This document shows, piece after piece, positions 305 through 53,435 of a stretch of DNA of 53,762 bases. Origin of the DNA: Prauserella alba (GTDB taxonomy: Bacteria; Actinomycetota; Actinomycetes; Mycobacteriales; Pseudonocardiaceae); the NCBI RefSeq assembly GCF_024171735.1, contig NZ_JAMTCH010000011.1:1-53762 (forward strand). Direction: 5' to 3'. The position numbers were made by a program, and so were the translations under genes. The notes under the pieces are model-generated. The model ran no database searches. It was not told the DNA's origin and was given only the letters and a program-made list of their open reading frames with translations. Every line of letters begins with the position of its first letter. Position 1 is the first letter of the stretch.

Positions 305-424
305 TTGCGGATTCCGGGGGCCGTGTTGCGGATTCCGGGGCCCGTGTTGCGGATTCCGGGGCCCGTGTTGCGGATTCCGGGGGCCGTGTTGCGGTTTCCG
401 GCGCCCGTGTTGCGGTTTCCCGTC
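305..424 (+). repeat. 21-bp intergenic repeat array (type A), about six units
   Basis: Tandem copies of a 21-bp unit with core CGTGTTGCGGATTCCGGGG; the last units vary to GGTTTCC. The first unit is truncated by the IS30 insertion. The array lies about 65 bp downstream of the stop codon of the minus-strand gene at 489-1088. On that gene's sense strand the core reads GGAATCCGCAACACG. A 21-bp period is both seven codons and about two helical turns, so every frame stays open and spurious ORFs arise over it. Confidence 0.95.
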
Positions 425-488
425 GTCCGGTGGCCGCCATCGAAGGCGCGATTCGGCGCGATGGGTTCTCGCGCACGGTCCGCAGTTG

Positions 489-1088
489 TCAGAACGGCGC
501 GTGCTCGACGCGTTCGTTGACGTCGCCGATGTGCTGCGAGCCCGCGTACCTGCCGGGGAGGTAGCGCTGCAGCGCCTCATGGGCCTGCAGGGCCGACTCG
601 GAACGTCCGCCGACCCGCACCTGGTACACGGCGTCGCCTCGATGGAGCCGGTGCGCTTCCGCCAACCCTCCGGACGCGGCGTGCGGGTCGAGGTGCAGGT
701 CGAGTGCGGTCAGCACGGCGCCCTCGCGGCGCTGGGCACGCCGCGAATACACGAGCTGGGCCGTGCGCAGTTCGGCCGACCGCACATTGGTCCAGTCCAC
801 GCGAAGCCGTTCCCCCGACCTGCCGGAGTAGTCCAGTCCCGTCGGCGTCAGTGCCAGCCTGGCCGGTTTCAGTGCACGCCGCAGCCTGCGCATCGACGGC
901 ATTCCGCCCAGGAACGTCAGCACACCGAGAAGTATCGGGATGAGCCGCAGCAGCATCGAATCGTCGGTGGGCCACAGTCCGGCACCGATGAAGACACCAC
1001 CGAACACGACCGCCGCCAACGCCCACGCCGTGGCGCGCCGAATCTCCTCGGCGGGCGGTCTCGTATCGATCAACCAGCCGTCATGCAC
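489..1088 (-). CDS. Putative membrane protein with PH-like C-terminal domain
   Basis: A 199-residue protein of unknown function. Two hydrophobic segments lie at about residues 22-40 and 44-62 (AAVVFGGVFIGAGLW and LLRLIPILLGVLTFLGGM), separated by a short loop. The remainder is soluble and begins ARLALTPTGLDYSGRSGERLRVDWTN, a layout seen in small actinobacterial PH-like membrane proteins. The start is the ATG at 1088. It stands alone, downstream in orientation of the MFS gene (120 bp gap), and is followed by the repeat array and IS30 end. No catalytic motif is visible. Confidence 0.7.
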   Translation of the reverse strand: MHDGWLIDTRPPAEEIRRATAWALAAVVFGGVFIGAGLWPTDDSMLLRLIPILLGVLTFLGGMPSMRRLRRALKPARLALTPTGLDYSGRSGERLRVDWTNVRSAELRTAQLVYSRRAQRREGAVLTALDLHLDPHAASGGLAEAHRLHRGDAVYQVRVGGRSESALQAHEALQRYLPGRYAGSQHIGDVNERVEHAPF

Positions 1089-1208
1089 CCGATCAGGGTA
1101 ACGACGGCGATCACCTCGCCGGTTCGCCGCGTCGCGCGGTTCGCCTGTGATCCGCCGAACCGGCTCGTCACAATGCGGAGGAGATCGTGGCGGAGCGGCC
1201 TCGCGTAC

Positions 1209-2378
1209 TCACGGTTCGGTGCCACCTGCGACCACTCTTCGCGAGGACCCGTGCAACATCAACGCCACCCCACTGAGCAGTGACGTTACGGAAGTGAGGA
1301 TCAACAGCGGGCCCAGCCCCAGTCCGGGGATCATCGCACCAGCCAAGGCCGGGGCTGCAACCGAACTGAAGGCCCCTACGACCAGGCAGATCGTGAACGC
1401 CGCGCCGGCACGCTCGGGGACCAACTCGGCGGTCCACACCGCAAGCACTGCCGAGCCCATCATGTACCCGATACCGAAGATGCACGCCGAGGCAATCGTC
1501 GCAGTCAGCGAGTCGCTTGCCAGCCCGAGCAGCGCCAGCGCCGCACCAACCGTTCCGAGGCACAGCGCTGCGACCCGCAAGCTGCCTACCCGTTGGACAA
1601 GGCTCCCCGTAGCCACGCCCACCATGCCGGTGAGGCCGATGGCCGAGTACAGAACCGGGACGACGGCCGCCGGAAGGGTACCGCGGTCGACGACATCGGC
1701 GGCGTAGGTGAAGTAGATGACGACGACCGCGAAGTAAACGACGGAGTAACCGATCGGGACCCACAGCGCTGCCGCCAACGACGATGCGCCGCCCTGCCTG
1801 TCCGGACGCGGGGCCGACCTGGTTCTCGGCACCAGGCGTAGGTTCACGAGTGCGGCGGTTGCCGCGGCCAGGGCGATGCCTCCCCAGACGAGGCGCCAGG
1901 AACCCGCGAGCGCCAGCACGGCGAGTCCGCCGAGCAGCACCAGTCCACCGCTGGTTCCGGTCGTGATGATCGCCAAAGCTCTGGGCTGCTGCCGCACGGG
2001 CACCACACGGGTAACGATGTCGGAGTAGGCGGCCCAAACCCAGCCGCCGGCGCTGCCGGCTAGGACGACACCGACGGCGAGCAGCCCCGGAGACTGCGCG
2101 AAGGCCACGATCACCGCACCCAGAACGCCGCAGGTGCCGCCTACGGTCGTCGGGGCACGCGAACCGTGGCGGGCAGCGATTCGCCCCGCGAGCAGTAGTC
2201 CCGCCAGGTAGCCAGCGAACGTGGCGCTGGCGATGAGGCCGAGAGCGAGCTCGGAAAGCCCCAGCTCCTCCCGGACACTCGGCAGCGTCAGACCGTAGGC
2301 GTAGCGAGCCATCCCGAAGGCGACCCCGACCACAGCCGCACCGGCCAACCCGATCCGGCCGTCCGCGGAGAGTCCCAT
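1209..2378 (-). CDS. MFS transporter, YbfB/YjiJ-like
   Basis: A 389-residue polytopic inner-membrane protein with about 12 hydrophobic segments. It opens with the signature AFGMARYAYGLTLPSVREEL, typical of YbfB/YjiJ-type major facilitator proteins, which are probably exporters of small organic molecules. I chose the ATG at 2378 because AGAGGA lies 5 nt upstream; in-frame starts at 2393 and 2438 would add 5 or 20 residues that look non-conserved. It is divergent from the TetR regulator at 2551, and the shared control region holds a palindromic operator, so substrate-induced derepression is likely. The substrate cannot be told from sequence. Confidence 0.85.
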   Translation of the reverse strand: MGLSADGRIGLAGAAVVGVAFGMARYAYGLTLPSVREELGLSELALGLIASATFAGYLAGLLLAGRIAARHGSRAPTTVGGTCGVLGAVIVAFAQSPGLLAVGVVLAGSAGGWVWAAYSDIVTRVVPVRQQPRALAIITTGTSGGLVLLGGLAVLALAGSWRLVWGGIALAAATAALVNLRLVPRTRSAPRPDRQGGASSLAAALWVPIGYSVVYFAVVVIYFTYAADVVDRGTLPAAVVPVLYSAIGLTGMVGVATGSLVQRVGSLRVAALCLGTVGAALALLGLASDSLTATIASACIFGIGYMMGSAVLAVWTAELVPERAGAAFTICLVVGAFSSVAAPALAGAMIPGLGLGPLLILTSVTSLLSGVALMLHGSSRRVVAGGTEP

Positions 2379-2510
2379 CCATTCCTCTTCCATCGACGAA
2401 GCGACTCGGCCCCACCCGCCACAGCGGGATCGGGCCATGATGCAGGCAGCTGCTGAACACCGGGGTTCGCTTCTTTCCCTCCAACAACAGAATGACCGTC
2501 ACGGTTTACC

Positions 2511-2544
2511 AGAACGTTCGTTCTGTCCGGGCGGCTCCTACAAT
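2511..2544 (+). promoter_or_regulatory. TetR operator and promoter between the MFS and tetR genes
   Basis: AGAACGTTCGTTCT at 2511-2524 is a 6-bp perfect inverted repeat with a TT spacer. TACAAT at 2539-2544 is a good -10 box ending 6 nt before the regulator's ATG at 2551, so that transcript would be leaderless. The palindrome sits where the -35 box would be, an ideal position for autorepression. The same site could also block the divergent MFS promoter. Confidence 0.65.
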
Positions 2545-2550
2545 AATGTG

Positions 2551-3511: not shown

Positions 3512-3619
3512 ATGCGAGTGATCTACACCGCGATTCGTCGCTACGTCGCCGAGCTGAACCGGATGCAGGACGTTGGCCGTGGCCTCTCCACGTACAAGGG
3601 AGAGCGGGTCGGCCGCTGA
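3512..3619 (+). CDS. Possible 35-residue small protein
   Basis: An ATG at 3512 preceded by purine-rich GAAAGGGGGTGTCAAAGG opens a 35-codon frame. It encodes a basic peptide starting MRVIYTAIRRYVAELNRMQD with no hydrophobic segment. A hairpin with a T-rich tail follows 29 bp after the stop, as expected for a short monocistronic transcript. I do not recognise the sequence and assign no function. The ribosome site and terminator are the only support, so it could be a chance ORF. Confidence 0.4.
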   Translation: MRVIYTAIRRYVAELNRMQDVGRGLSTYKGERVGR

Positions 3620-3766: not shown

Positions 3767-3831
3767 GCCGTGTTGCGCCCTCCGGGGGCCGTGTTGCGGA
3801 TTCCGGGGGCCGTGTTTCACGTTCCGGCGCC
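3767..3831 (+). repeat. 21-bp intergenic repeat array (type A), three units
   Basis: Three units: CGTGTTGCGCCCTCCGGGGG, CGTGTTGCGGATTCCGGGGG and a degenerate CGTGTTTCACGTTCCGG. It lies about 28 bp downstream of the minus-strand LtrA stop codon, in the GCAACACG orientation on that gene's sense strand. Confidence 0.9.
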
Positions 3832-6291: not shown

Positions 6292-6337
6292 CGTCAACCG
6301 ATGGCGACCGGACGGCAACTCGGCTGCGCCCAGCGGT

Positions 6338-6378
6338 GCCGAGTGCAGAACACGCGGTGCCGAGTGCGGGACACGCGG
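6338..6378 (+). repeat. Intergenic repeat array, type B, two units
   Basis: Two units of CCGAGTGCAGAACACGCGG type, the reverse of GTGTTCTGCACTCGG. They lie 46 bp after the nuclease stop codon and run up to the xylulokinase stop codon at 6379. The orientation matches the nuclease gene as the upstream gene. Confidence 0.85.
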
Positions 6379-7779
6379 TCAGGGGTGCAGGTGCTGCCTC
6401 GCCGCCCGGTGGGCTTCCACCACGTTCGCGCCCGCGTCGAGGTCGGCGGCCGGCGGGGTGAGGGTCGTACCGTCGTCGTGGCCACGCCAGCTCGGCGGTT
6501 CCGCCCCGCCGCGCAGCGCCCACGCGGCCTGCCGCGCCGCGCCGACGGCGACGTGCTCCATCTCCGGCGGAAGGACCACGTCCGCGCCGAACACCCCGGG
6601 TGCGATGGCCCGGACGGCAGCCGACCGCGACGCACCACCGGTGAGCAGCACTCGCCGCAGCGCCACGCCGTGTTCACGCAACGAGTCGAGGCCCGCGGCG
6701 AGCCCGCACAGCATCCCTTCGACGGCGGCGCGCGCCACGTTGGCGGGCGTCATGTTGGACCGCCGGAGGCCGACGAGCGAGCCCGTGGCGTCGGGCAGGT
6801 TCGGCGTCCGCTCGCCGTCCAGGTAGGGCAGCAACGTCAGCCCGTCGGCGCCGGGCGATGCCGACAGTGCCAGCTGGTCGAGACCTTCGAGGTCGGTGCC
6901 GAGCATCGCGGCGGTGGAGGTGAGCACGCGCGCGGCGTTGAGCGTGCACGCCAGCGGCAGGTACCGGCCGGTGGCGTCGGCGAAGCCGGCTACGACGCCG
7001 GAACCGTCGGCGACCGGTTTCTCGGACACGCCGAAGACGGTGCCGCTCGTGCCGAGTGACACGGCGACGTCGCCGTCGGCGAGTTCGAGCGCGAGGCCCG
7101 CGGCCATGTTGTCGCCCGTGCCCGCGGCGACGAGTACACCGTCGGCGGTGTGTCCCGCCGCCCCGGCCGGTTCCAGCACCGTCGGCAGGCCCGGTTCCCT
7201 GCCGAACGCCCTGACCAGCAGGTCCGTGCGGTATGAACCGTCGACGGCCGAGTAGTAGCCGGTGCCGGAGGCGTCGCCGCGGTCGGTGGTCGGATCGCCT
7301 GCCCGGTCGAGCAGCTGCCAGGTCAGCCAGTCGTGGGGCAGCAGCACGCGGGCGACGCGTTTCGCCGCGTCGGGTTCGTGTTCGGCCAGCCACCGCAGCT
7401 TGGTCACCGTGAAGCTGGCCAGCGGCACGGACCCGACGGCGTCCGCCCAGGGTTGGCCGCCGCCCAGCTCGGCCACGAGGTCGTCGGCAGCGCCTGCGGA
7501 GCGGACGTCGTTCCACAGCAGTGCGTCGCGCACCACGTCGCCGTCGTCGTCGACGGTCACCATGCCGTGTTGCTGCCCGGCGACGGCGATCGCGGCGACG
7601 TCGTCGAGCAGACCGTCACCCGCGGTGCGCAGTGCCGCCCACCACTCGGCGGGGTCGACCTCCGTGGCATCCGGGTGCGCGGCCTGCCCGGTCCGCACCA
7701 CCCGTCCGCTCGCGGCCTCGCACACGACGACCTTGGTGGACTGCGTCGACGAATCAACTCCGGCTACGAGCTCGTTCAC
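6379..7779 (-). CDS. xylB: Xylulokinase
   Basis: A 466-residue FGGY-family carbohydrate kinase that phosphorylates D-xylulose to xylulose 5-phosphate. Visible motifs are the N-terminal phosphate loop [23 protein letters not shown], the second ATPase segment [14 protein letters not shown], and the C-terminal [15 protein letters not shown]. Length suits the family. The start is GTG at 7779. It is the last gene of the polyol operon, 53 bp after the ATPase gene, and would take the ketose made by the dehydrogenase at 12077-13081 into the pentose phosphate pathway. Confidence 0.92.
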
Positions 7780-22710: not shown

Positions 22711-22795
22711 CAACTCGCAACACGACACCCGGAATCCGCAACACGCGCCCCGGAGACCGCAACACGGGCCCCGGAATGCGCAACACGGGGTCGGG
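22711..22795 (-). repeat. 21-bp intergenic repeat array (type A), four units
   Basis: Four units reading GCAACACG on the plus strand (for example CCGGAATCCGCAACACGCG). It lies 87 bp after the glycosyltransferase stop codon, in the usual sense orientation for that gene, with a terminator-like hairpin between. Confidence 0.95.
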
Positions 22796-22877: not shown

Positions 22878-23183
22878 TCAGGCGACCGCGATCGTCACCT
22901 GGTGCAGGCCGGGGCCCGCCGCGTCGACCGTGGCCTCACCGTTGCCGCTGCGGTGGAGGGCACGCACCTTCCACTCGCCCGGCGCGGCGTAGAACCGGAA
23001 GTCGCCCTCGGGGGAGGCCTGGACCTCGCCCGCGAACTCGCCGTCGGCGTTGAGCAGCCGCACGTAGGCGCCGCCGAGCGCGCCCTCGCCGCCGGTCACC
23101 TTGCCCGCGACGACGACCTGGTCGCCGGTGTCCTCACCGGTGACGACCGCCGACTGCTCGGGAGCTCCGCATCCGTCCGTCAT
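22878..23183 (-). CDS. sseC: DUF1416 family protein, SseC-like
   Basis: A 101-residue protein of the DUF1416 family, annotated SseC in mycobacteria, where it always accompanies a CysA-type thiosulfate sulfurtransferase. Visible blocks are CGAPEQ at the N-terminus, VVVAGKVTGGEGALGGAYVR and GEFAGEVQASPEGDFRFYAA, suggesting a carboxypeptidase-regulatory-like beta sandwich. It starts one base after the rhodanese stop codon. Exact role in sulfur transfer is not established. Confidence 0.9.
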   Translation of the reverse strand: MTDGCGAPEQSAVVTGEDTGDQVVVAGKVTGGEGALGGAYVRLLNADGEFAGEVQASPEGDFRFYAAPGEWKVRALHRSGNGEATVDAAGPGLHQVTIAVA

Positions 23184-26644: not shown

Positions 26645-27424
26645 ATGAGCCTGGACTTGCTGGTACTGACTGCGGAATCCGACGCCACCTCGGTGCTGCC
26701 CGCCCTCGATCTGCTCCCGCACACGGTACGCGTACGCGCGCCCGAGGTCACCGCATTGCTGGACGCCGGACACCGCGACGTCATCCTGCTGGACGCACGC
26801 TCGGACCTCGCATCGGCCAAGAGCCTGAGCAGGCTGCTCAAGGGCGCAGGCGACGAGGAAGCGGCGACGCCGGTCATCGCGGTCGTCGGCGAGGGCGGAC
26901 TCGTCGCCGTCAACTCGGAGTGGCGTACCGACGACATCCTGCTGCCCACCGCCGGTCCCGCCGAGGTCGACGCCCGTCTGCGCCTTGCCACGACCCGCGA
27001 CGGCGGCGCACCCCAGGTCGACGCCGAGTTGCGTGTGGGTGACCTGGTGATCGACGAGGCCACCTACACCGCCCGGCTGCGCAAGCGCACCCTCGAACTC
27101 ACGTACAAGGAGTTCGAACTGCTCAAGTACCTCGCCCAGCACGCGGGCCGTGTGTTCACGCGCGCTCAGCTACTGCAAGAGGTGTGGGGCTACGACTTCT
27201 TCGGTGGCACGCGCACCGTGGACGTCCACGTGCGGCGACTGCGCGCGAAACTCGGCCCCGAGCACGAGCAGATGATCGGCACCGTGCGCAACGTCGGCTA
27301 CAAGTTCGAGCGTCCGGCCAAGTCGACCGGGCCGGTAAAAGGAGGTAACCCCAGCGGGGGGCACCTCGCCGGGCCCGTCGCGGGGCCCGTTCCCGCCGAA
27401 CGCTCCGAGTACTCCGGACGCTGA
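26645..27424 (+). CDS. glnR: GlnR-type orphan response regulator
   Basis: A 259-residue OmpR-type regulator that controls nitrogen metabolism in actinomycetes. The N-terminus [12 protein letters not shown] is family-typical. The receiver lacks a normal acidic pocket and has VILLD (Asp50). The winged-helix domain runs from [18 protein letters not shown] to [13 protein letters not shown]-like sequence near residue 225. A low-complexity Gly/Pro tail of about 30 residues follows, ending in the first unit of a tandem repeat. Orthologue of Rv0818 by position. An ATG at 26645 is preferred over GTG at 26639. Confidence 0.9.
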
Positions 27425-27496
27425 GCACACTCCGGCCGCTGAGCACACTCCGGACGCTGAGCACACTCCGGCCGCTGAGAGTACTCCGGGCGCTGA
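27411..27496 (+). repeat. 18-bp tandem repeat at the 3' end of glnR
   Basis: About four and a half copies of CTGAGCACACTCCGGCCG. The first unit supplies the last codons and stop codon (TGA) of glnR, and the rest is intergenic before mshD. The spacing and GAGCAC-CCGG character recall the 18-bp repeat in the DUF6328 gene. Confidence 0.9.
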
Positions 27497-28509: not shown

Positions 28510-28712
28510 TCCGGTGGTAGCGTCGCACGAGGCCAGCCGCGCTCACGGGTGACGTGAGTCAGGGAATCCGGTGCGAATCCGGAACTGACGCGCAGCGGTG
28601 AGGGTGACGGCCGGAACATACGCCACTGCAGCCTGGCACGCGCCGCAACGGCCCGGGCGGGCGGCGGGAAGGCGTTCCGGCCGGACGACCCCGAGTCCGA
28701 AGACCTGCTGGC
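28510..28712 (+). ncRNA. Cobalamin riboswitch
   Basis: The leader holds the conserved core GGGAATCCGGTGCGAATCC, then ACTGACGCGCAGCGGTGAG, the B12 box GCCACTG (28622-28628) and the closing GTCCGAAGACCTGC (about 28695-28708). It precedes the binding-protein gene at 28782 and should shut it off when adenosyl- or hydroxocobalamin is plentiful. Confidence 0.93.
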
Positions 28713-28713
28713 C

Positions 28714-28730
28714 CCCGACGTTCCGTCGGG
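28714..28730 (+). terminator. Short stem-loop after the riboswitch aptamer
   Basis: CCCGACG pairs with CGTCGGG across a TTC loop, about 50 bp before the start codon. It may be the expression-platform hairpin that responds to ligand. There is no U-tract, so control may be by translation or Rho. Confidence 0.4.
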
Positions 28731-29822: not shown

Positions 29823-30868
29823 TGACGACGGCACCCGTACGCGAGCCACTGCGGCAGCGTTCGCGGCTGCCCGCGGTACTGCTGGCAGGCGGCGTGGTGC
29901 TGCTGCTCTCCATCGCCGTGGCGGTGACCATCGGCCCGGCCGACATCGAGGTCGCCGACGTCTGGGCGAGCGTGGCCGACCACCTCGGCATCGGCGACTC
30001 CACACTGTCCGTGCTCCGCGACGGGATCGTGTGGGACCTGCGGATGCCACGGACGCTCATGGCCGCCGTGTGCGGTGCAGGACTGGCCGTGTGCGGTGTC
30101 GTGATGCAGTCGCTGCTGCGCAATCCACTCGCCGACCCCTTCATCCTCGGCGTCTCGTCGGGCGCCTCGACCGGTGCGGTGCTCGTGATCGTGCTCGGCG
30201 CTGGCGCCGGTGTCCTCTCCATGGCGGGCGGCGCGTTCCTCGGTGCGGTGGCCTCGTTCGCTCTCGTCCTGATGCTGAGCCACACGCTGGGCGGCACCAC
30301 CGACCGTGTCGTGCTGTCGGGCGTGGCCGTGATGCAGCTGCTGTCGGCCTTGACGTCGTTCATCGTGCTGACCTCGGCCGACGCCGAGACGACCCGCGGC
30401 GTGCTGTTCTGGCTGCTCGGGTCGTTGGCGAACGTGGGCTGGCCGGAGGTCGCGACCGGTGCCCTCGCACTGGCGGCGGCGCTCGCGGTGTGTGCCGGCT
30501 ACGCGCGCTCGCTCGACGCGTTCGCGTTCGGCGAGGACGCGGCGGCGACACTCGGCATCGCGGTCGCGCGGACCCGCGTGGTGCTGATGTCGGTGACCGC
30601 CCTGCTGACCGCCGTACTCGTCAGCTCCGTCGGCGCGATCGGATTCGTCGGCCTGGTGCTGCCACACGCTGCGCGCATCCTGACCGGCCCCGGGCATGCG
30701 CGGCTGCTGCCCGTGAGCGCACTGACCGGTGCGGTCCTACTCGTGTGGGTCGACACGGTCGCGCGAACCGTGCTCCAGCCGCAGGAGATCCCGGTCGGCG
30801 TGGTGACGGCGTTGATCGGCGTGCCGGCCTTCGTGCTGATCCTCTACCGCTCGCGAGGTGTGCAATGA
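29822..30868 (+). CDS. FecCD/BtuC-type ABC transporter permease
   Basis: A 348-residue permease with about ten transmembrane helices, the BtuC/FecCD architecture. Typical motifs include RMPRTLMAAVCGAGLAVCG, QSLLRNPLADPFILGVSSG and IGFVGLVLPHAARI. Its ATG shares one base with the stop codon of the binding-protein gene, and its own end overlaps the ATPase gene by four bases. It forms the channel of the corrinoid importer. Confidence 0.92.
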   Translation: MTTAPVREPLRQRSRLPAVLLAGGVVLLLSIAVAVTIGPADIEVADVWASVADHLGIGDSTLSVLRDGIVWDLRMPRTLMAAVCGAGLAVCGVVMQSLLRNPLADPFILGVSSGASTGAVLVIVLGAGAGVLSMAGGAFLGAVASFALVLMLSHTLGGTTDRVVLSGVAVMQLLSALTSFIVLTSADAETTRGVLFWLLGSLANVGWPEVATGALALAAALAVCAGYARSLDAFAFGEDAAATLGIAVARTRVVLMSVTALLTAVLVSSVGAIGFVGLVLPHAARILTGPGHARLLPVSALTGAVLLVWVDTVARTVLQPQEIPVGVVTALIGVPAFVLILYRSRGVQ

Positions 30869-31635
30869 CCGCTTCCGGGTTGGCCGCCCACCGGGTGTCG
30901 AAGCAACTCGGCGGCGGCCTCGTACTCGACGGGGTCAGTCTGTCGCCCGCCGCGGGATCGACCGTCGGCGTGCTCGGCCCCAACGGTTCCGGCAAGTCGA
31001 CCCTGCTGCGCGTACTCGCGAACGTGACACCGCCGTCGTCAGGACGGGTCACGATGGACGGCCAGGACATCACCGAGTTCGGGCGGAAAGCGCTGGCGCG
31101 CCGCGTCGCCGTCGTCGAGCAGCACTCCGACACGCAGATTCCGCTGACGGTGCGCGACGTCGTCGGGCTCGGGCGAGTACCGCATCGGCGCGCGTGGCTG
31201 TCCGCGTCGGCGGAAGACGAGACGGCCGTCCACGAGGCCCTCGAGCAGACCGGGATGACCGCGAAGGCCGACCAGCGCTGGCAGACCCTGTCCGGCGGCG
31301 AACGGCAACGGGTGCAGATCGCGCGTGCACTGGCACAGCGTCCGAGCGAACTGCTGCTCGACGAACCGACGAACCACCTCGACGTTCAGCACCAGTTCGA
31401 GCTGCTCGACCTGCTGAGCGGGCTGCCCGCGACGTCCGTGATCGCCCTGCACGACCTGAACCTCGCCGCGACGTACTGCGACGACATCCTCGTGCTCGAC
31501 GGCGGAGTCGTCGTCGCCGCGGGCCCACCGGACGACGTCCTCACCGAATCGCTGATCATGCAGGTCTACAACGTCAAGGCCGAGGTCACGACCAGCCCCG
31601 AAGGCCACCCCCACGTGCGTTTCATCCGCTCCTGA
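30865..31635 (+). CDS. BtuD/FepC-type ABC transporter ATPase
   Basis: A 256-residue ATPase. It has Walker A GPNGSGKST, signature LSGGERQRVQIARAL, Walker B LLLDEPTNHLD and H-loop ALHDLN. It is the third gene of the riboswitch-controlled importer, coupled by an ATGA overlap. It energises corrinoid uptake. The gene block separates mshD from the pst genes, which are adjacent in M. tuberculosis. Confidence 0.92.
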   Translation: MTASGLAAHRVSKQLGGGLVLDGVSLSPAAGSTVGVLGPNGSGKSTLLRVLANVTPPSSGRVTMDGQDITEFGRKALARRVAVVEQHSDTQIPLTVRDVVGLGRVPHRRAWLSASAEDETAVHEALEQTGMTAKADQRWQTLSGGERQRVQIARALAQRPSELLLDEPTNHLDVQHQFELLDLLSGLPATSVIALHDLNLAATYCDDILVLDGGVVVAAGPPDDVLTESLIMQVYNVKAEVTTSPEGHPHVRFIRS

Positions 31636-31651: not shown

Positions 31652-31795
31652 CGTGTTGCAGTTCCCAGGGGCCGTGTTGCAGGTTCCGGGGCGCGTGTTG
31701 CAGTTCCCGGGGCCGGTGTTGCAGATTCCGGGCGCGTGTCCTGCACTCATGCCCGCGTGTCCTGCACTCGTGCAGGCGTCCTGCACGCCGGCTCC
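31652..31795 (+). repeat. Mixed intergenic repeat array: four type A then three type B units
   Basis: Four units of CGTGTTGCAGTTCCCGGGG type are followed by CGCGTGTCCTGCACTC twice and a truncated GCGTCCTGCACG. It begins 17 bp after the ATPase stop but is oriented like the minus-strand gene remnant at 31799-31905, whose stop codon it abuts. It is the clearest place where both repeat types are joined. Confidence 0.93.
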
Positions 31796-31909: not shown

Positions 31910-31990
31910 CTGCAACACGGCCCCTGGAACCCGCAACACGGGCCCCGGAAAGCGCAACACGGCGTTCCCCGAGTGCAGGACACGCGGGCG
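31910..31990 (-). repeat. Intergenic repeat array: three type A and one type B unit, reverse orientation
   Basis: Reads GCAACACGGCCCCTGGAAC, GCAACACGGGCCCCGGAAA, GCAACACGGCG and then GAGTGCAGGACACGCGG on the plus strand. It ends 16 bp before the pstB stop codon. It faces the array at 31652-31795 across the gene remnant. Confidence 0.93.
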
Positions 31991-32006: not shown

Positions 32007-32786
32007 TCAGCCGAAGCGGCCCGAGATGTAGTCCTCCGTGGCCTTCTGCGACGGCGTGGAGAAGATCTTCGTCGTCTCGTCGATCTCCACGAGTTCACCG
32101 GGCTTGCCGACGCCCTGCAGGTTGAAGAATCCGGTGGTGTCGGACACCCGCGCGGCCTGCTGCATGTTGTGCGTGACGATGACGATCGTGTAGTTGGCCT
32201 TGAGCTCCAGCATCAGGTCCTCGATGGCCTGCGTGGAGATCGGGTCGAGCGCCGAGCACGGCTCGTCCATCAACAGCACCTCGGGCTGCACCGCCACGGC
32301 ACGCGCGATGCACAGCCGCTGCTGCTGACCGCCCGACAGGCCCGAACCCGGCTTCTGCAGGCGGTCCTTGACCTCTTCCCACAGGTTGGCCGACTTCAGC
32401 GACCGCTCCACGAGATCGTCCATTTCGGACTTCTTCAGCCGCCGGTTGTTCAGCTTGAGTCCGGCGGCGACGTTGTCGTAGATGGACATCGTCGGGAACG
32501 GATTCGCCCGCTGGAACACCATGCCGATCTGGCGGCGCACGTTCACCGGGTCGACGCTGGGGGCGTACAAGTCGTCGTCGTCCATGACGATCGAACCCTC
32601 GACCCGCGCGTTCGGCACGAGTTCGTGCATGCGGTTGAGGGTGCGCAGGAAGGTCGACTTGCCGCAGCCCGACGGCCCGATCAGCGCCGTGACCGATCGC
32701 GGCTGGATCGTCATCGACACGCCCTGCACCGCGAGGAACTTGTCGTAGTAGATGTCGAGGTCCTTGACCTCGATGCGCTTAGCCAC
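32007..32786 (-). CDS. pstB: Phosphate ABC transporter ATPase PstB
   Basis: A 259-residue ATPase that drives high-affinity phosphate import. It shows Walker [30 protein letters not shown], signature [14 protein letters not shown], Walker [13 protein letters not shown] and H-loop VTHNMQQA. It is the last gene of pstSCAB, 26 bp after pstA. Equivalent by position to phoT (Rv0820) of M. tuberculosis. Confidence 0.96.
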
Positions 32787-37027: not shown

Positions 37028-37133
37028 ACGGCTGACTCTACGGCCCGCAATGGCCCAACGCCGAATCCAGATCTGAACCGTCGGTGAACGCGGAAGGGCG
37101 ACTCCGTGACATCTCCGGGCGCCGTGACGTCTC

Positions 37134-37238
37134 GTGTTGCGCTCTCGGGGGCCGTGTTGCGGGTTCGGGGGGCCGTGTTGCGGGTTCGGGGGGCCGTGTT
37201 GCGGGTTCGGGGGGCCGTGTTGCGGATTCCGCGGGCCG
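37134..37238 (+). repeat. 21/22-bp intergenic repeat array (type A), five units
   Basis: Five units with core CGTGTTGCGGGTTCGGGGGG. Three consecutive ones are identical, which implies recent amplification or conversion. It ends about 43 bp before the stop codon of the minus-strand LCP gene, in the GCAACACG sense orientation for it. Confidence 0.95.
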
Positions 37239-37280: not shown

Positions 37281-40200
37281 TCAGGGGGCCGAAGCGCTGG
37301 CGGGCTGTTCCGCGGCCTGCTGCTCGTCGGACTCGGGCTGCTCACTCGGCGACGACTCGCCTGCGGGCGCCTCGTCGGCCGCGGGCTCCTCGCCCGGCAA
37401 CGGCGTGTTGTCGATGATGGCGTCGAACAACGCCTGCGAATCCTCTTCGAGCAGTACCTCGTTGCCACGTTCGTTGGGATCGCCGACCGTCGGCACGGTC
37501 AGGAACTCGACCTTGCCCGCGTCGAATCCGCGCATCGATTGCGCCAGCGTCAGCATCTGGTCGACACCAATCCCCTCCCCGAAGGTGGACCGCGTGAACG
37601 CGTCGATGAACCTGCTCAGCTTGCCGGTGTCGAGGAGCACGTCACTCGACAACGTGGCGTCGAGCAGCGACGAGAGGAACTTCTGTTGCCGCTCCATGCG
37701 GCCGTAGTCGGAGAACGTCGGGTCGCTGTACACCTTGCGGGCGCGGACGTAGTTGAGCGCCTGGTCGCCCTTGAGTCGCACGTTCCCGGTCTGCGTGACG
37801 ATCTTGCCGAGCGTCTGGTCGACGATCGGCTCGTCGATCTGCACGTTGACGCCGTCGACCGCGTCGACCATGTCCTTGAAGCCGTGGAAGTCGATGCCGA
37901 CGAAGTGGTTGACCTTCATCCCGGTGAGTTCCTGGACCACCTTCGTCACGCACTTCGGCCCGCCGACCGCGAACGCGGTGTTGATCTTGACCTGGCTTGC
38001 GGCGGGCACCGTCTCGCCGTACCGGCCGGACTCCGAGTCCCACCGCTCGCATTCGGGCCGGGATATCTCCAGGTCACGCGGGAACGACACGACGACGGCG
38101 CGGCTGCGGTCCTCCGGCACGTGCGCCACCATCAACGTGTCCGACCGGGCTCCGCCGACGTCTGCCGTAGTACCGACGTTCTCCTCAGCCTCGGCGCCCT
38201 CGCGCGTGTCCGAACCGAGGATGATGAAGTTCTCGTCGCCGATCTGACCGGGCATGATGTGCGCCGAGTTCTCGTCGAGCGCGGCGATCTGGTTGAACTT
38301 CGAGTCGAACCACGTCTTCGCGCCCCAGGCGGCGCCCGTGGCGAGGAAGACCAGCGCCGCCGCGACGATGGCCAACGTCTTGGTCGCCAGCCGTGCACGG
38401 TCGTTCTTACGCTTCTTCTTCTCCTGCAGGCGGGTACGCGCGGGCGTGTCGTCCTCGCCGGGGTCCTGCTCGTCGGTTTGCCGGGCGTCGGACCTGTCGG
38501 CGTCCGCTGCGGCCTCGTCGCCGGACTCCCGTTCACCCGCCACCGCCGAGCCACGCCCGCCGATCTTCGACGTGACGACAGCCTGCAACTTCGTGCGCGT
38601 GTGCTCGATCCGCGCCGCGAGCCGTTCCTTGCGCGCACGGCGCTCGCTCTCCTCGGCCTCGAGTTCGTCATGCGCTGCGGAGAACCGCGCGAGCGTGTTG
38701 TCGATCTTGCGCTTGTACTGCGTCTGCTCGTCGACCGGTTCCATCTGGTCGGTCATCGAGAGCCGGTCTTCCTCGCGTTGCCTGCGAGGAGCGAGCGGCC
38801 TGCGTGGCCGCGGCGGAGACGGCGCGGAGCGGCCGGGCTCGTCGGGGCCTGCCGGCTCGACGGGTTCGACGCGCTCATCGGGGCCGTCGGGTGCCGAATC
38901 GCCTTCAGGGCCGGCGGACGGCGAGGCGGTAGATGGCGGTCCAGCAGGCGATGGGCCGGTAGATGGCGGGGCGGCAGGCGGTGGCGCGGCAGGCCGGGGC
39001 GCGGCCGCTCTGCGCGGACGCGGCGGGGCGGGCCGATCTGCCCCGTTCGGCCCGCCGGCGTGCTCGGCACCGGGAGCCGCCCCGGCACCGTTGGCCGCAT
39101 AACTGTTGAATCCAGCGCCGGTGGCCCCAGCACCGGGAGCAGCGGTGCCGTGAACCGCGGCCGAGCGGCGGGCGGCGGAACGGCGGGCGGCGGGCTCGCC
39201 ACGATCGTCGACGTGCTCGTCACCGTCGATGTCGGCGACCACGCCACCGTCCAGCACGGACGCGACGGCACCGAACACGGTCGGCGGTTCCGGTTCGCGG
39301 TCCGATCCCGGGCGTCGTCCGTGGGGTACTGGACGCTGCGGCTCCGGACGCGGCGACTCGGGACGTTGGGGCTCGGGACGTTGGGGTTCCGAACGTTGCG
39401 AACCCGGGCGTGGCGGCTCGGGAGGTGGCGGCTCCCGGCGCGGATCGGGACGGCGCGCTCCGGCACCGCCTGCGGCCACGCCCGGAGGGACGCCGTTGGG
39501 CCGGGGCCCGTCCGCAGAGGGCGGTTCGGTGTGGTGGCGTGGCCTACCCGGCGGCGGCCCCGGCCGGGGCTGAGGCCCGCTGGGCTGCTCGTCCACCTCT
39601 CCTCGCCCAGGGCCGGTTGCCTCGGGCGGAACGGGAAAACCGGGCTTACCGGGAGTGCTGGGAGTACCGGGCGAGTCCGGAGTAGCCGGCGGCGCGTCGA
39701 CCGGCCCGCTCCGGCCAGAAGGCCGGCGCTGTGGACCCGGCCTGTCCGGTGCGTCGTACGACATCGGCGCCTCGGCCGCCGCAGGGACGGGCCGCCCCTG
39801 CGGTGCGGACCCCTGCGGTGCGGGCCCCTGCGCTGGGGGCGTTCCGGCGGGCGGGACCGGCCGTGGGTTCGGGCCGGAGTGCTGCGGTACGCGCCGTCCC
39901 GGAGCGTTCGGGGGATGCGGGCCCGCCTGGGACGGCCCGTCGGCGGGAGCCTGACCGGGAGCGGCCGGGCCGACCTCCCGTGGATCACGCGGCGGTTCCC
40001 GTCGCGGCTGGGGCTCGGCAGGCTCACCCTGCGGGCGCCACATGTCGGGTGCCGGACGGGTCGCGCGTGGCCGCGGGTCCTCCGGTTCCGGCGGACGCGC
40101 CGGCTCCCGCGGAGATGCCGCAGGCCCCGGTGCAGGGGGCGCGGACGGGGCAGGCGCCGACTGCGGGCGCCGCGGCGGTTCGGCGGGCGAGGGGCGCATC

Positions 40201-43966: not shown

Positions 43967-44010
43967 CGCATGTCCTGCATTCAGCACCGCGTGTCCTGCA
44001 TTCGGGGTCC
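43967..44010 (+). repeat. Intergenic repeat, type B, two units
   Basis: CGCATGTCCTGCATTCAGC and CGCGTGTCCTGCATTCGGG in tandem. It lies about 105 bp downstream of the minus-strand MFS stop codon at 44116, in the usual orientation for that gene. Confidence 0.85.
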
Positions 44011-44115: not shown

Positions 44116-45606
44116 TCACCGCGAATCCGCAACACGGCCTCCGGAATCCGCAACACGCTCGCCCGAATCCGCAACACGGCCACCCAGGACGGCGACCGCC
44201 GCGAACGCCGCCGCGACGACCGCTGCCGCGACCGCATACGCGAGCGCGTATCCCCCGAGTGCCGCCTCCCGTTCGCCGGAACCGCCGGTCAGCAACGTCT
44301 CCGTACGCGTGGCGGCGAGAACCGTGAGCACCGACAGCCCGATCGCACCGCCGAACTGCGTCACGGTGTTGAACAGCCCCGAGGCGAGACCCGAATCCTC
44401 CGGAGCGGCGTCGGTCATCCCCGTGGCCATCACGGCGGGCAGCGCCGAACCGAAACCGGCGCCGATCAGCAGCATCGCGGGCAGGATGTCGAGTGCGTAG
44501 GCCGCGTCGGCCGGGACCCGCGTCAACAGCAGCAGTCCGGCCGCGATGAGCGCCAGCCCGGCGAGGATCACCGACCGGTGGCCGAACCGGCCGATGAGCC
44601 GTGCCGACAGCCCGAGCGAGATCGCACCGATCACCGCCGGGGTGGGCAACATCGCCAGACCGGCGTCACGGGCGCCGTATCCGAGCGGCCCGCGCAGCAG
44701 CAGCACCGACACGATCATGAAGCCGAACATGCTGCCTGCCATGAGGAACGCGGCGACGTTGGCCACGACCAACCCGCGGGAACGCAGCAGCCGCAGCGGC
44801 AGCAACGGCTGTGCCGCGCGGCGCTCCCGCCATCCGAACGCGGCCAGCAGTACGAGCGACAGCGCACCGAAACCGAGTGTGTGGGCCGATGCCCAGCCGA
44901 CGTCCTCGACGGTGATCACGGTGTAGATCCCGACCATGAGGGCAGCCGTCACGAGCGCGGCTCCGATGAAGTCCGCTCCGGCCGCCAGACCGGTTCCGCG
45001 TTCGGAAGCCAGTAGTCGCACGGCGAAGGCGAGCGCGATCAGTCCGATGGGGACGTTGAGGAAGAACACCGCGTGCCAGCCCGCGACCTCCGTGATCATG
45101 CCGCCGGCGAAGGTGCCGATGCTGCCGCCCGCGGCCTGCACGAAGCCGAACGCGCCGATCGCGGTCGCTCGCTCGCGGGTGTCGGTGAAGAGCGTGACGA
45201 TCATGCCGAGCAGCACCGCCGTCATCATGGCGGCACCGAGGCCCTGCACGAATCGGCCTGCGATGAGCACCGGAGCCGTCCACGCCGCGCCGCACAACGC
45301 CGACGACGCCGTGAAGACGACGAGTCCGCTGACGAAGATCCGCTTGCGCCCGAGCAGATCGCCGAGCCTGCCGGACAGCAACAGCAGACCCGCGTACGCG
45401 ACGAGATACGTCCCGGTGACCCATGCCAGCCCGGACTGGGTGAAACCGAGGTCGCGTCGGATCACGGGCAGCGCGACGTTGACGATCGTTTCGTCGACGA
45501 TCGCCATCAGCGCACCCGCGCACAGCACGACGAGTGCCGCCCAGCGCTTGCGGTCTCCGGTCTGGGCTCGGGCCGGGGTCGGCCCGGCCGTTTCCGCCTC
45601 GGTCAT
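44116..45606 (-). CDS. MFS drug/metabolite exporter (DHA2-like, 14 TM)
   Basis: A 496-residue transporter of the EmrB/QacA type. Motifs are MAIVDETIVNVALPVIRRDL, the loop SGRLGDLLGRKRIFV, and antiporter motif C-like AAGGSIGTFAGGMI. The ATG at 45606 has GAGGAG upstream. It is divergent from an HxlR regulator at 45685. The last 20 or so residues (GGRVADSGERVADSGGRVAD) and the stop codon are encoded by type A repeat units in reverse orientation, so the original C-terminus has been replaced or extended by repeat invasion. Confidence 0.9.
   Translation of the reverse strand: MTEAETAGPTPARAQTGDRKRWAALVVLCAGALMAIVDETIVNVALPVIRRDLGFTQSGLAWVTGTYLVAYAGLLLLSGRLGDLLGRKRIFVSGLVVFTASSALCGAAWTAPVLIAGRFVQGLGAAMMTAVLLGMIVTLFTDTRERATAIGAFGFVQAAGGSIGTFAGGMITEVAGWHAVFFLNVPIGLIALAFAVRLLASERGTGLAAGADFIGAALVTAALMVGIYTVITVEDVGWASAHTLGFGALSLVLLAAFGWRERRAAQPLLPLRLLRSRGLVVANVAAFLMAGSMFGFMIVSVLLLRGPLGYGARDAGLAMLPTPAVIGAISLGLSARLIGRFGHRSVILAGLALIAAGLLLLTRVPADAAYALDILPAMLLIGAGFGSALPAVMATGMTDAAPEDSGLASGLFNTVTQFGGAIGLSVLTVLAATRTETLLTGGSGEREAALGGYALAYAVAAAVVAAAFAAVAVLGGRVADSGERVADSGGRVADSR
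44120..44180 (-). repeat. Type A repeat units inside the 3' end of the MFS gene
   Basis: Three units (CGCGAATCCGCAACACGGC, CCGGAATCCGCAACACGCT, CCCGAATCCGCAACACGGC on the plus strand) encode the transporter's C-terminal RVADSG repeats in frame. The orientation is opposite to the usual one relative to the gene. Confidence 0.92.
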
Positions 45607-46149: not shown

Positions 46150-46185
46150 ACGAGGGCCGTGCCGCCGCCGTGCCCCGAGCGCGGA

Positions 46186-46276
46186 ACACGGGGTGCCGAG
46201 TGCAGGACACGCGGCCTGGAAAGTCCGACACGGCCTCCGGAATCCGCAACACGGTCCCCCGAATCCGCAACACGCG
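46186..46276 (-). repeat. Mixed intergenic repeat array between hxlR and the sodC-like gene
   Basis: About five units, types A and B mixed: GGAACACGGGGTGCCG, GAGTGCAGGACACGCGG, a degenerate GTCCGACACGG, then two CCGAATCCGCAACACG-type units. It starts 37 bp after the HxlR stop and ends 8 bp before the convergent superoxide dismutase-like stop codon. Confidence 0.92.
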
Positions 46277-46284
46277 TCGAGGGG

Positions 46285-46926
46285 TCAGAAGTCGACGTTG
46301 ATGCAGGCCAGGCGCGAGCCCGCGGAGCCGGCCTCACCCGGTTCGGCCGACGTGTGGTGTTCGTGGATCACCACGGATGCGGGCCTGCGGTCGTCGTACG
46401 ACCAGTCCACATGCGACGACGCGAATCCGTTGCCGTGGGAGGTGGTCGTGAAGTCGAGCCACACCTCGTTGTCCGGGTTGGCGTACTCGGGGTCGGTCGA
46501 CGGCTGGTTCGGGTCCTGCACGTGCTGGAAGTGCGGGCCCGCGTCGTCGCCGCTCGGGCCGCACGGGTTCTCGTGGACGTGCGCGCCGTAGTGCCGGTCC
46601 GGCTGCAGGCCGGAGACGGAGAGTTTCGTGGCGGTGCCGACGCCGCCACTCGACAGCGAGAACACCGACGCGCGCGCTCCCGCGGGCACGCGGTCGAGGT
46701 CGTACGTCGTGGCCGCGGCGCCGTCGACGTACGGTGCGAACGTGCCGTGCGCGAACGCCACCGCAGCTCGGGACTGTGCGCCGGGTGACGTGCTGAATGA
46801 CGTGCCGGATGGCTGAGCGCCGGGTGACTGCGCCGACTCGGCGGCAGCCGGGGCAGCGGCCGCGGTGCCGGCACCCATCAGGGCGACGGCCGACGTCAGG
46901 GCAAGGACAACGGGGAGTCGTTTCAT
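46285..46926 (-). CDS. Secreted Cu/Zn superoxide dismutase-like protein
   Basis: A 213-residue exported protein with a signal peptide (cleavage near AAAAPAAA) and a Ser/Pro linker. Copper ligands are His116 and His118 (YGAHVHENPCGP), His132 (GPHFQH) and one of the IHEHHTS histidines. Cys122 and Cys208 can form the usual disulfide, and Arg205 matches the catalytic arginine. There is no lipobox, unlike mycobacterial SodC. The zinc loop is unusual, carrying DPNQPSTDPEYANPDNEVW. It should protect the envelope from superoxide. Confidence 0.82.
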   Translation of the reverse strand: MKRLPVVLALTSAVALMGAGTAAAAPAAAESAQSPGAQPSGTSFSTSPGAQSRAAVAFAHGTFAPYVDGAAATTYDLDRVPAGARASVFSLSSGGVGTATKLSVSGLQPDRHYGAHVHENPCGPSGDDAGPHFQHVQDPNQPSTDPEYANPDNEVWLDFTTTSHGNGFASSHVDWSYDDRRPASVVIHEHHTSAEPGEAGSAGSRLACINVDF

Positions 46927-48052: not shown

Positions 48053-48673
48053 ATGGGCAGCACGGGAGCGCAAGCGCGCGGCGAAGGATCCGGCACCGGG
48101 TCCGATCGCGGCGCGCCGCACCAGCCCGACCGGCAACACGACGCCGGAACGCAACACGACGCCGGAGCGGAACACGGTGCCGGCCTGCAACACGACGCCG
48201 GTGCGGAGCACAGTGCCGGAACGCAGCACGATGTCGGTGCGGAGCCGCACCACCAGCGGCTGACGCGGAACGTCAACGAGCTGCTCGGCGAACTCCGAGT
48301 CGCCCAGGCCGGGGTTCAGATCCTGTTCGGCTTCCTGCTCGCCGTGGCGTTCACGGCGCAGTTCCGTGAAGCCAGCGGGTTCGAGAAGACGCTGCACCTG
48401 GTGACGGTGCTGTTCACGGCCGCGGCCACCGCCATGCTCACCGCACCGGCCGCGTGGCACCGCATGCTGTTCCGTGCCGGGCGCAGGCAGACGATCCTGC
48501 GCGTCGGCAACAGGCTGGTCATCGCGGGGCTGGTGTGCCTGGCCATCGCAGTGACGCTCACCGTCGGGCTGATCGCCAAGGTCGTCTACGGCCCCGTGCT
48601 GATGGTCGTGGCGATCGCCCTGATCGGCGGCCTGTTCTCGACGCTGTGGTTCTTCATCCCGACGAAGCTGTGA
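48053..48673 (+). CDS. DUF6328 membrane protein with repeat-encoded N-terminus
   Basis: A 206-residue protein. Residues about 72-206 form the DUF6328 core with four hydrophobic segments (NVNELLGELRVAQAGVQILF and onward). Residues about 27-65 are six-residue repeats of QHDAGT/EHGAGL type, encoded by 18-bp DNA repeats that resemble the intergenic GCAACACG family. Function is unknown. It follows the EamA gene by 9 bp, with GGAGG overlapping that gene's end, so the two are probably co-transcribed. Confidence 0.8.
   Translation: MGSTGAQARGEGSGTGSDRGAPHQPDRQHDAGTQHDAGAEHGAGLQHDAGAEHSAGTQHDVGAEPHHQRLTRNVNELLGELRVAQAGVQILFGFLLAVAFTAQFREASGFEKTLHLVTVLFTAAATAMLTAPAAWHRMLFRAGRRQTILRVGNRLVIAGLVCLAIAVTLTVGLIAKVVYGPVLMVVAIALIGGLFSTLWFFIPTKL
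48131..48242 (+). repeat. 18-bp coding tandem repeat in the DUF6328 gene
   Basis: About six units of ACGCAACACGACGCCGGA with drift (GCGGAACACGGTGCCGG, GCGGAGCACAGTGCCGGA). The core CGCAACACG...CCGGA is shared with the 21-bp type A intergenic units. All units keep the reading frame and encode x-x-H-x-x-G hexapeptides. Confidence 0.85.
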
Positions 48674-52524: not shown

Positions 52525-52531
52525 GATCACA

Positions 52532-52562
52532 AGCCTGCAACTTCGAGTAAGGTAGAAGTCAA
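52532..52562 (-). promoter_or_regulatory. Promoter with 19-bp spacer and internal dyad before the LuxR gene
   Basis: On the minus strand TTGACT (52557-52562) and CAGGCT (52532-52537) are separated by 19 bp. The dyad ACTTC/GAAGT (52540-52544 and 52555-52559) lies in the spacer. An over-long spacer holding a dyad is the layout of MerR-family-activated promoters. Transcription would start at about the ATG. Confidence 0.4.
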
Positions 52563-52661
52563 CGGATTCTCGCGGACCGCCGCCGTCCGGGTGATCGATT
52601 CGGTGGATCCATCGACGCCCCTCGCGGTCGCCGCCCGGCTCCGGGGCGGCGACCGCGAGGG

Positions 52662-53276
52662 TCAGTTGCTGCCGTACGGGCGCACCGCGCGGGCCTCGTG
52701 CAGTGCCCTGCCCCACCACGACAGCTGGCCGAGCATGCCCTTGGCCGCCTGGCTCGCCGACTCCGCGTCGTGCGGGACACCGTCGTCACCGAAACGGTCC
52801 GGGTAGTTGTAGAAGCTGACGGTGTCGCGGACGGTGACGGCGTGCAGCTCGGCGAAGACGCCGCGCAGGTGCTCGACGGCGCGCAGGCCGCCGCTCATGC
52901 CGCCGTAGGTGACGAAGCCGACGGGCTTGGCGAGCCATTCCGCGTGGAAGTGGTCGATGGCGGCCTTGAGCGGAGCCGGGTAGCTGTGGTTGTACTCGGG
53001 CGTGACGACGACGAACGCGTCGGCTGCGGCCAGGCGCTCGCCGAGTGCGTCCGTGTCGGCGGAGCCGTCGAGCGAACCCGGCAGGTCCATGCCTGCCAGG
53101 TCGACGACGTCGACCTCGAACCCGTGATGCTTGCGCACCTCGTCGGCGAACCAGGCGGCCGGTACCGGTGCGAACCGGCCGGTGCGAACACTGCCGATGA
53201 TCACCGCGAGCCGCAGCGGCGCTTCGGTGCCCCGGGTGTCGCCAAGGGTCGTGGTCGTTGCGTTGTCGCTGGTCAT
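52662..53276 (-). CDS. NAD(P)H-dependent FMN reductase
   Basis: A 204-residue flavodoxin-like protein. After 22 linker residues comes the phosphate-binding loop LAVIIGSVRTGRFAPVPA, then VVVTPEYNHSYPAPLKAAID and GFVTYGGMSGGLRAVEHLRG. These are marks of the NADPH-dependent FMN reductase family, which reduces quinones, azo compounds or free FMN. ATG at 53276 follows GAGGAAC. It is in the same direction as the LuxR gene, 137 bp upstream of it. Confidence 0.92.
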   Translation of the reverse strand: MTSDNATTTTLGDTRGTEAPLRLAVIIGSVRTGRFAPVPAAWFADEVRKHHGFEVDVVDLAGMDLPGSLDGSADTDALGERLAAADAFVVVTPEYNHSYPAPLKAAIDHFHAEWLAKPVGFVTYGGMSGGLRAVEHLRGVFAELHAVTVRDTVSFYNYPDRFGDDGVPHDAESASQAAKGMLGQLSWWGRALHEARAVRPYGSN

Positions 53277-53385
53277 GATGGTTCCTCTCGCGTCGATCGG
53301 TGCGTTGTCGATTGCCGTCGACGCTACGAACGCCGGTCGCTCGGCAGCATCCGTCGACCGACCGGTACGACGACTGTCGCCCGCC

Positions 53386-53435
53386 GCGTGTTGCGGATCC
53401 CGGGGCCCGTGTTGCGGATCCAGGGGCGCGTGTTG
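53386..53435 (+). repeat. 21-bp intergenic repeat array (type A), interrupted by IS30
   Basis: Two full units (CGTGTTGCGGATCCCGGGG and CGTGTTGCGGATCCAGGGG) and a third cut after CGTGTTG, where the IS30 end begins at 53436. Confidence 0.93.

Follow-up and report, generated by a model that had tools for sequence, protein, structure and literature searches.

What is the nature of the short tandem repeats that follow genes in Prauserella alba, and what could a row of them do at a gene end? We addressed this question in a window of 53,762 nt (G000:C9:1-53762), which appears to be the whole of contig C9 in the 5.6-Mb, 11-contig genome of this species (G000) and which holds rows of 21-bp direct repeats, here called arrays, between its genes. 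For comparison we used other sequence of the same genome, syntenic stretches from six relatives, among them P. isguenensis (G003), P. aidingensis (G004), P. halophila (G005), P. salsuginis (G006) and, as the most distant, G001, and genomes from elsewhere in the Pseudonocardiaceae. Our tentative proposal is that the arrays work at the DNA level, as boundary elements at transcription-unit ends.

Two types of unit form arrays with a 21-bp period

The original prediction, made from the window alone, had listed nine tracts of tandem units. All nine are present, with edges within ~20 bases of where it had placed them. A 19-mer unit allowed up to 3 mismatches matched the window 26 times, compared to a mean of 0.02 matches in shuffled sequence. 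There are two unit types: T1, CGTGTTGCGGnTTCCGGGGcc, and T2, CGTGTyCTGCAcTCgg followed by a loose tail. T2 had been overlooked; within the window it makes up the tracts at 6334-6375 and 43969-44010 and parts of those at 31652-31776, 31920-31984 and 46170-46274. Genome-wide, a strict T1 pattern was matched 300 times, 153 on the forward and 147 on the reverse strand (control, 1 on each), and exact copies of the T2 core numbered 83, with none in the control.

Units were scored in a 1.25-Mb sample that combined the window with the 940-kb contig C3 and with 13 further 20-kb pieces picked for holding arrays. The sample contained 214 T1 and 106 T2 instances, while column-permuted matrices at the same score gave 5-15 and 4-12, respectively. 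At a lower score threshold we obtained 332 units, which form 80 arrays of at least two units, and 71 of these Prauserella arrays have only 2-5 units. The predicted 21-bp period proved exact in 191 of 212 same-strand unit steps; triples numbered 101 at period 21 and 0 to 2 at each of the periods 18-20 and 22-24. T1 and T2 also combine in mosaics, such as 2211 and 2221111. Three identical consecutive units, expected near 37134, begin at 37153, 37174 and 37195, and the active amplification that had been read from them fits the variation in unit number, from 2 to 8, at orthologous gene ends. Arrays are unevenly spread along contig C3, where the stretch from 550 to 710 kb holds 23 of the contig's 41.

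Arrays lie at the 3' ends of genes

To place arrays relative to genes we used unselected sequence (contig C3 and the window), with open reading frames (ORFs) from a simple caller, some of whose calls are possibly spurious. This sequence holds 52 arrays. Convergent gaps contain 21 of them (7.67 per 10 kb of gap), tandem gaps 20 (1.92) and divergent gaps four (0.74); five others lie inside called ORFs and two at edges. Array density is about ten times higher in convergent than in divergent gaps. Of the 78 arrays measured in the 1.25-Mb sample, 38 begin no more than 30 nt past a same-strand stop codon and 14 are that close to a convergent stop, compared to 6-8% for each distance class under random placement in intergenic DNA. 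None lies within 30 nt of a start codon (0/74 and 0/77). The proposed placement at gene 3' ends is thus upheld. Coding repeats were rejected as an explanation, since most arrays lie behind stop codons, the exception in the window being the array at 44116 and those in unselected sequence being the five of 52 within ORFs. The equality of 21 bp with seven codons, to which attention had been drawn, has no bearing on window arrays that are non-coding except for this one at an ORF end.

The arrays had also been called directional, with the sense strand of the preceding gene reading GCAACACG in most tracts. Directionality is found in convergent gaps, where 29 arrays are closer to the stop of the gene with CGTGTTGC on its sense strand and 11 are closer to the stop of the opposite gene (p = 0.006), but the direction is the reverse of that claimed: the sense strand in Prauserella usually reads CGTGT. 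The bias in tandem gaps (17 arrays sense, eight antisense) is not significant (p = 0.11). Assigning each array to its nearest gene fails at 3769, where the array follows a 35-codon plus-strand ORF and a hairpin, not the minus-strand gene at 3859; for the array at 301-426, the same-place array in relatives follows a plus-strand gene.

Array starts and terminator-like hairpins

Transcription ending in GC-rich actinobacteria is poorly understood. We scored hairpins downstream of stop codons in the P. alba sample and the six syntenic stretches, using the 891 of 1,388 stops that are followed by a gap of at least 40 bp. Among convergent ends without a sense array, fewer than a third had a strong hairpin (86 of the 300 examined). 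A strong hairpin occurs in the first 100 nt after two of the 51 convergent stops that have an array beginning at most 30 nt away; with tandem ends added, the figure is 4/63 (vs. 86/300, p = 8e-5). When the array starts 31-150 nt from the stop, a hairpin lies between stop and array in 12 of 25 cases. Hairpins after the array were found in 7/46 early-starting and 3/22 later-starting cases. Arrays therefore tend to start at the stop codon where there is no hairpin, and often past the hairpin where there is one. The scarcity of hairpins with stop-adjacent arrays of convergent genes, taken together with the hairpins ahead of late ones, indicates that the array start tends to mark the expected end of the transcript. 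The array itself showed no sign of forming an intrinsic terminator, as judged from the absence of a fold signal in arrays (U runs were not part of the score).

A five-base core is conserved among genomes

Orthologous gene ends indicate which part of the unit is kept. The genes of an ABC-transporter pair at 30865-31635 and 32007-32786 both end in an array in P. alba and in all six relatives (7/7). Three genomes have two genes inserted between the arrays, and each array has stayed with its own gene. In G001 the units at this pair read CGTGTTGGCACCCCACGACGC and similar; place, orientation, period and the first five bases are kept, and the remaining sequence differs. Arrays behind the genes at 22878, 46285 and 6379 are common to half or more of the relatives. 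The last of these genes encodes an FGGY kinase, whose ortholog ends carry an array in four species (P. alba, G004, G005 and G006); no array was found at those of G001, G002 and G003, and G001 has a hairpin-like sequence instead.

We then scored conservation in the middle unit of three, fixing CGTGT only in both neighbors, which avoids circularity. Each base of CGTGT was kept in 98-100% of units from P. alba (n = 96), other Prauserella (n = 79), G001 (n = 15), G262 (n = 24) and G210 (n = 34), and in 94% of those from G173 (n = 14). Identity to the preceding unit at the other 16 positions was 72-82%, a figure that the neighbor filter biases upward.

The pattern (CGTGT N16) x3 is present in 80 of 297 Pseudonocardiaceae genomes, representing 20 of 46 genera. 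At least ten hits occur in 39 genomes from 8 of the 46 genera (hand count), a level that the reversed control attains in two genomes. Outside the family, 391 genomes of the class were surveyed and gave at most five hits each; one control reached 56. When named genomes were searched with a two-unit pattern, 76 of the 80 matches listed came from Prauserella (P. isguenensis, P. salsuginis, P. rugosa, P. aidingensis and P. halophila). The laboratory strain P. rugosa NRRL B-2295 is among the carriers. The other four of the matches listed (L117, L138, L165 and L179) lie outside the family in isolated GTGTTGC-rich stretches, with 1 to 6 pairs of CGTGT spaced at 21 bp per locus. Array occurrence is patchy within two genera (g16 and g27). 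Searches by CGTGT and a 21-bp period are blind to families with another core; Tandem Repeats Finder, which makes no such assumption, picked out the units of G001.

Arrays lack a fold signal and opposing arrays are spaced in steps of ~10.3 bp in one genome

We compared arrays of at least three units with dinucleotide shuffles and found no useful fold signal on either strand in six sets of 5 to 24 arrays (mean z, -1.53 to +0.21). For the 24 such arrays of P. alba, the first 84 nt gave a mean z of -0.79 in sense and -0.50 in antisense, and no stem-loop was apparent. An RNA hairpin formed by a single array was rejected on these grounds.

Arrays in G262, which belongs to another genus, often come as opposing pairs. 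The steps between the members of outward pairs are 10-13, 21-22 and 42-43 (a looser list adds 1 and 40), and those of inward pairs are 20, 30, 39, 48, 59, 81, 91 and 92 (a looser list adds 49, 51 and 69). Since the inward steps include odd numbers of helical turns, they do not merely reflect a 21-bp register. In a scan of periods 8-14, outward pairs fitted best at 10.25 (n = 20, p < 0.0005) and inward pairs, ten in number with two repeats from one locus, at 10.2 (p = 0.0025). A joint fit of both pair types places a single center 4.55 bp from the first C, or half a turn from there, and so midway along the conserved block CGTGTCGTCC. Further loci from the genus of G262 agree with the phasing (mean cosine 0.66, n = 16). 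The steps of ~10.3 bp between opposing arrays suggest DNA binding on one face of the helix in G262, which we treat as a lead.

Two ideas raised by the original prediction can be revisited here. The equivalence of 21 bp to two turns of the helix may have a bearing. The ~10.3-bp steps of G262 were not reproduced in Prauserella. As for function, its guess of RNA stability, or 3'-end structure, is weakened because the arrays lack RNA structure, its guess of chromosome packaging, or a DNA boundary, gains from the phasing in G262, and its guess of mRNA 3' end formation retains some probability.

G262 also contains six-site elements with a span of ~130-150 bp, about 147 bp at L300-L309 and L323-L358, with three outward sites per side, which are frequent near gene ends. 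In several of its convergent gaps, inward arrays occupy the gap from stop to stop.

Possible functions of the arrays

A DNA-level boundary is the explanation we favor, though with less than even confidence. Each 21-bp unit would carry one site, made up of CGTGT and a lineage-specific extension of a few bases, and the two helical turns between sites would bring all sites onto one face of the helix. A putative sequence-specific DNA-binding protein would then bind the row of sites cooperatively, and the bound row may stop polymerase from reading past a weak or missing terminator or from entering out of the convergent neighbor. Alternatively, the bound row may confine the supercoiling that builds up at gene ends. 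The proposal draws on the position of the arrays, their constrained core and period, their upkeep behind some orthologous genes, the absence of RNA structure and the ~10.3-bp steps in one genome. An extended form of it, which we regard as doubtful, is a dedicated boundary system of the Pseudonocardiaceae, akin to TTF-I/Sal-box terminators in a bacterial version. A protein would polymerize downstream of genes on CGTGT sites in helical phase and act as a block to polymerase or supercoiling, and co-evolution of protein and site would have replaced the non-core part of the site throughout the genome of each lineage. An element at gene ends with a five-base core kept in several genera, and perhaps read on one helix face, would add a DNA-bound kind of boundary, and its lineage-specific units offer a natural record of hundreds of sites in one genome changing together.

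A number of observations weigh against the boundary proposal. At gene ends, hairpins are no scarcer in tandem gaps with a near-stop array (2/12) than in those without (84/500), and some arrays lie behind a hairpin that could terminate transcription alone. Other arrays, at 37133 and 43969, have no preceding gene. In G262, arrays of either orientation lie directly against stops, which means that a directional block is no general feature, and G001 has no arrays at the ends of the genes orthologous to those at 22878, 46285 and 6379. We found no array-binding protein, and the distribution of WhiA appears not to track that of the arrays. The helical phasing comes from few places in a single genome. 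Removing duplicates among the inward pairs of G262 gave p = 0.024 (n = 8), 0.011 (n = 9) or, by a looser rule, 0.003 (n = 11), and the further loci of that genus add little because nearly all of their steps are near multiples of 21, with 19 and 27 deviating. Opposing arrays of Prauserella, 113-347 bp apart, show no helical phase (n = 14, p = 0.58), and same-strand breaks in Prauserella give a weak signal that is best at 8.25. The phase test in G210 yielded p = 0.095 (n = 7); the steps in G001 (37 and 57) and G173 (15 and 132) are too few for a test and fit poorly.

The strongest rival with a known mechanism is that the arrays are gyrase sites, in which phased, flexible CG/TG steps would aid DNA wrapping downstream of transcription units, where positive supercoils collect, as in the BIME-2 class of bacterial interspersed mosaic elements (BIMEs) of E. 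coli. The enrichment of arrays in convergent gaps, the helical phasing in G262 and the ~130-150-bp span of its six-site elements would all suit such a role. The available portion of PMC6379681 describes the E. coli gyrase motif as a phased 10-bp variation in G/C, with sites enriched downstream of transcribed operons, and BIME-2 is given the properties of strong gyrase sites there and in the available portion of PMC2817692. That motif is an extended composition pattern, whereas the arrays have one near-invariant pentamer and drift elsewhere, and most Prauserella arrays stop at the two to five units counted above; we consider the gyrase explanation unlikely. We give a similarly low chance to mobile or selfish repeats, spread by some agent and surviving at 3' ends as the least harmful place with no benefit to the host. 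High copy number, lineage-specific units, variable unit number, T1/T2 mosaics and the patchy occurrence within g16 and g27 would be expected of such repeats. The preferential upkeep of CGTGT over other positions would not, although a core recognized by a transposase could mimic it. Also at odds with selfish spread are the orientation and distance bias in Prauserella, the persistence of arrays behind the same genes despite changes in the flanking DNA, and the absence of a transposase of the repetitive extragenic palindrome (REP) type from 9 of the 11 array-rich genomes searched, with no arrays beside those found.

It is less probable still that the signal is read in RNA, the transcribed array being a loading site for Rho or an RNA-binding protein at the 3' end. 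The sense orientation and stop proximity in Prauserella, the few hairpins where arrays begin at convergent gene stops and the C-richness of the CGTGT strand in several lineages are in keeping with an RNA signal, but T1, the commonest Prauserella unit, is G-rich, arrays occur in both orientations at stops in G262, and the steps between opposing arrays there follow the DNA helix. The missing fold signal counts against it as well, though Rho would need none. The arrays might also be sites of WhiA, used here in a nucleoid or segregation role, since its box, GACAC/GTGTC, is similar to the core; CGTGTC starts most of the listed units of G262 and G173, and WhiA binds GACAC according to the part of PMC3781837 available. 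T1 reads AACAC, not GACAC, however, and the WhiA targets described in the source text available are promoters. The WhiA gene is present as one copy in each of 20 genomes, 12 with many arrays and eight without, so WhiA would not explain where arrays occur, and we consider its involvement very improbable. A WhiA paralogue as an array-specific factor is likewise not supported by the single gene per genome in 20/20.

Comparison with known repeat systems

The original prediction had called the element REP-like. Its habitat and copy number bear this out, the arrays being extragenic and of high copy number as are REP and BIME sequences. PF01797, the family of REP transposases (RAYTs), is absent from 16 of 18 genomes searched, nine of which are array-rich (G001, G210 and G262 included). 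P. alba has one PF01797 member and G030 has two, and no pairs of CGTGT at 21-bp spacing lie within ~1.5 kb of any of the three. Membership of the REP/RAYT system was rejected on the missing fold signal of the units and this distribution of the transposase. The arrays resemble REP, BIME and REPIN sequences with RAYTs in being high-copy intergenic repeats near 3' ends, with mosaics of unit types, inverted pairs in some genomes and species-specific sequences; they differ in being 21-bp head-to-tail direct repeats without a fold signal and without PF01797 alongside. With the gyrase-binding BIME-2 elements of E. coli they would share being intergenic, repeated and active as DNA, but they have one strict pentamer every 21 bp.

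Mycobacterial interspersed repetitive units (MIRUs) have units of 40-100 bp with small ORFs. Like the arrays, they are actinobacterial directional tandem repeats of variable copy number between genes; the 21-bp, mostly non-coding units described here fall outside the MIRU size range. TTF-I/Sal-box terminators are rows of short protein sites just downstream of eukaryotic rRNA genes. The arrays are similar in forming rows of sites just downstream of a transcription unit, but they do so at many protein-coding gene ends, and their binding protein is a proposal. The clt repeats, which are bound by TraB/TraA translocases, are also short direct repeats, and the pWTY27 repeat TGACACC contains GACAC (PMC3583192, as far as its available text goes). 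The clt repeats so described mark a plasmid transfer locus, in contrast to the hundreds of units at gene ends here.

Intergenic repeats at gene ends are a known habitat; the architecture of these arrays appears undescribed. We found no description of such arrays in Pseudonocardiaceae (Amycolatopsis, Saccharomonospora and Prauserella included) in the open-license literature, which is weak evidence of absence. Two REP surveys (PMC3733652 and PMC12306157) do not mention Amycolatopsis, and no such arrays are described in their available portions.

Arrays and neighboring features in the window

Table 1. Positions of the arrays and of the insertion sequence (IS) ends that cut them, in window coordinates
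Coordinates	Strand	Feature	Remarks
1..304	-	IS end inside the array at 305, terminus GTTGCAACCACCACTAGAACCCGCC	Transposase fragment
305..426	+	T1 array of 6 units, the leftmost truncated by the IS	Same-place array follows a plus-strand gene in G003, G004, G005 and G006; IS junction CGTG^TTG
3769..3831	+	T1 array, 3 units	Behind 35-codon plus-strand ORF (3512-3619) and terminator-like hairpin; sequence read
6334..6375	-	T2 array, 2 units	3 nt past stop of FGGY kinase gene 6379-7779
22725..22787	-	T1 array, 3 scored units and a fourth CGTGT at far edge	Behind strong hairpin after DUF1416 gene 22878-23183
31652..31776	+	Mosaic array, 4 T1 then 2 T2	16 nt past stop of ABC-transporter gene 30865-31635; array in 7/7 Prauserella genomes
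31920..31984	-	Mosaic array (T2, T1, T1)	22 nt past stop of ABC-transporter gene 32007-32786; array in 7/7 Prauserella genomes
37133..37236	+	T1 array, 5 units, three identical; orphan	44 nt from stop of minus-strand gene 37281-38756; no same-strand gene found just upstream
43969..44010	+	T2 array, 2 units; orphan	
44116..44178	-	T1 array, 3 units	Within 3' end of MFS ORF 44116-45606; no stop ahead of array
46170..46274	-	Mosaic array (scored T1, T1, T2, T2)	10 nt past stop of SodC-like gene 46285-46761
53387..53435	+	T1 array of 2 complete units plus one that the IS interrupts after CGTGTTG	
53436..53762	+	Same end of a second IS copy, in array 53387-53435	Transposase fragment with HTH_38

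The hairpin that separates the DUF1416 stop from its array scores 52.5. The 35-codon ORF (MRVIYTAIRRYVAELNRMQDVGRGLSTYKGERVGR) is preceded by a plausible ribosome site and followed by a strong hairpin and then the array; it has no Pfam match. At Rfam gathering thresholds no array in the window had a match, and the only hit was a cobalamin riboswitch (RF00174, 76.3 bits) at 28517-28726, ahead of the gene at 28782. We found no tRNA or known RNA gene next to the orphan arrays of the window. Repeats of 18 bp occur in or at the end of called ORFs at 27411-27496 and 48133-48231; the second contains GCAACACG, has another period than the arrays and looks coding.

An insertion sequence inserted into array units

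The outermost tracts of the window are cut by IS copies, which had been missed before. A search of the P. alba genome with the IS terminus found four copies; three of them open a contig and the fourth closes one. The window's contig ends are an assembly effect of these copies. All four termini sit in a T1 unit at one point, two adjoining TTGCG and two adjoining CGTGTTG, and arrays are therefore a target of site-specific transposition in this genome. The junctions are those expected if the IS enters CGTG^TTG^C in both directions and duplicates 3 bp of target; this probable duplication is deduced from single ends, no copy with both ends having been seen in the assembly. The HTH_38 domain of the transposase fragment points to the IS30 family. 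The fragment had no match in six other Prauserella genomes (E 0.001).

A different terminus (L407) ends at the same point of a T1 unit at the right end of contig C2, a contig chosen for a known array. One related terminus in P. isguenensis adjoins neither a T1 unit nor CCTT(C/G)GGGGC, a sequence that looks like another repeat and that all eight related IS termini in P. halophila (L408-L415) adjoin.

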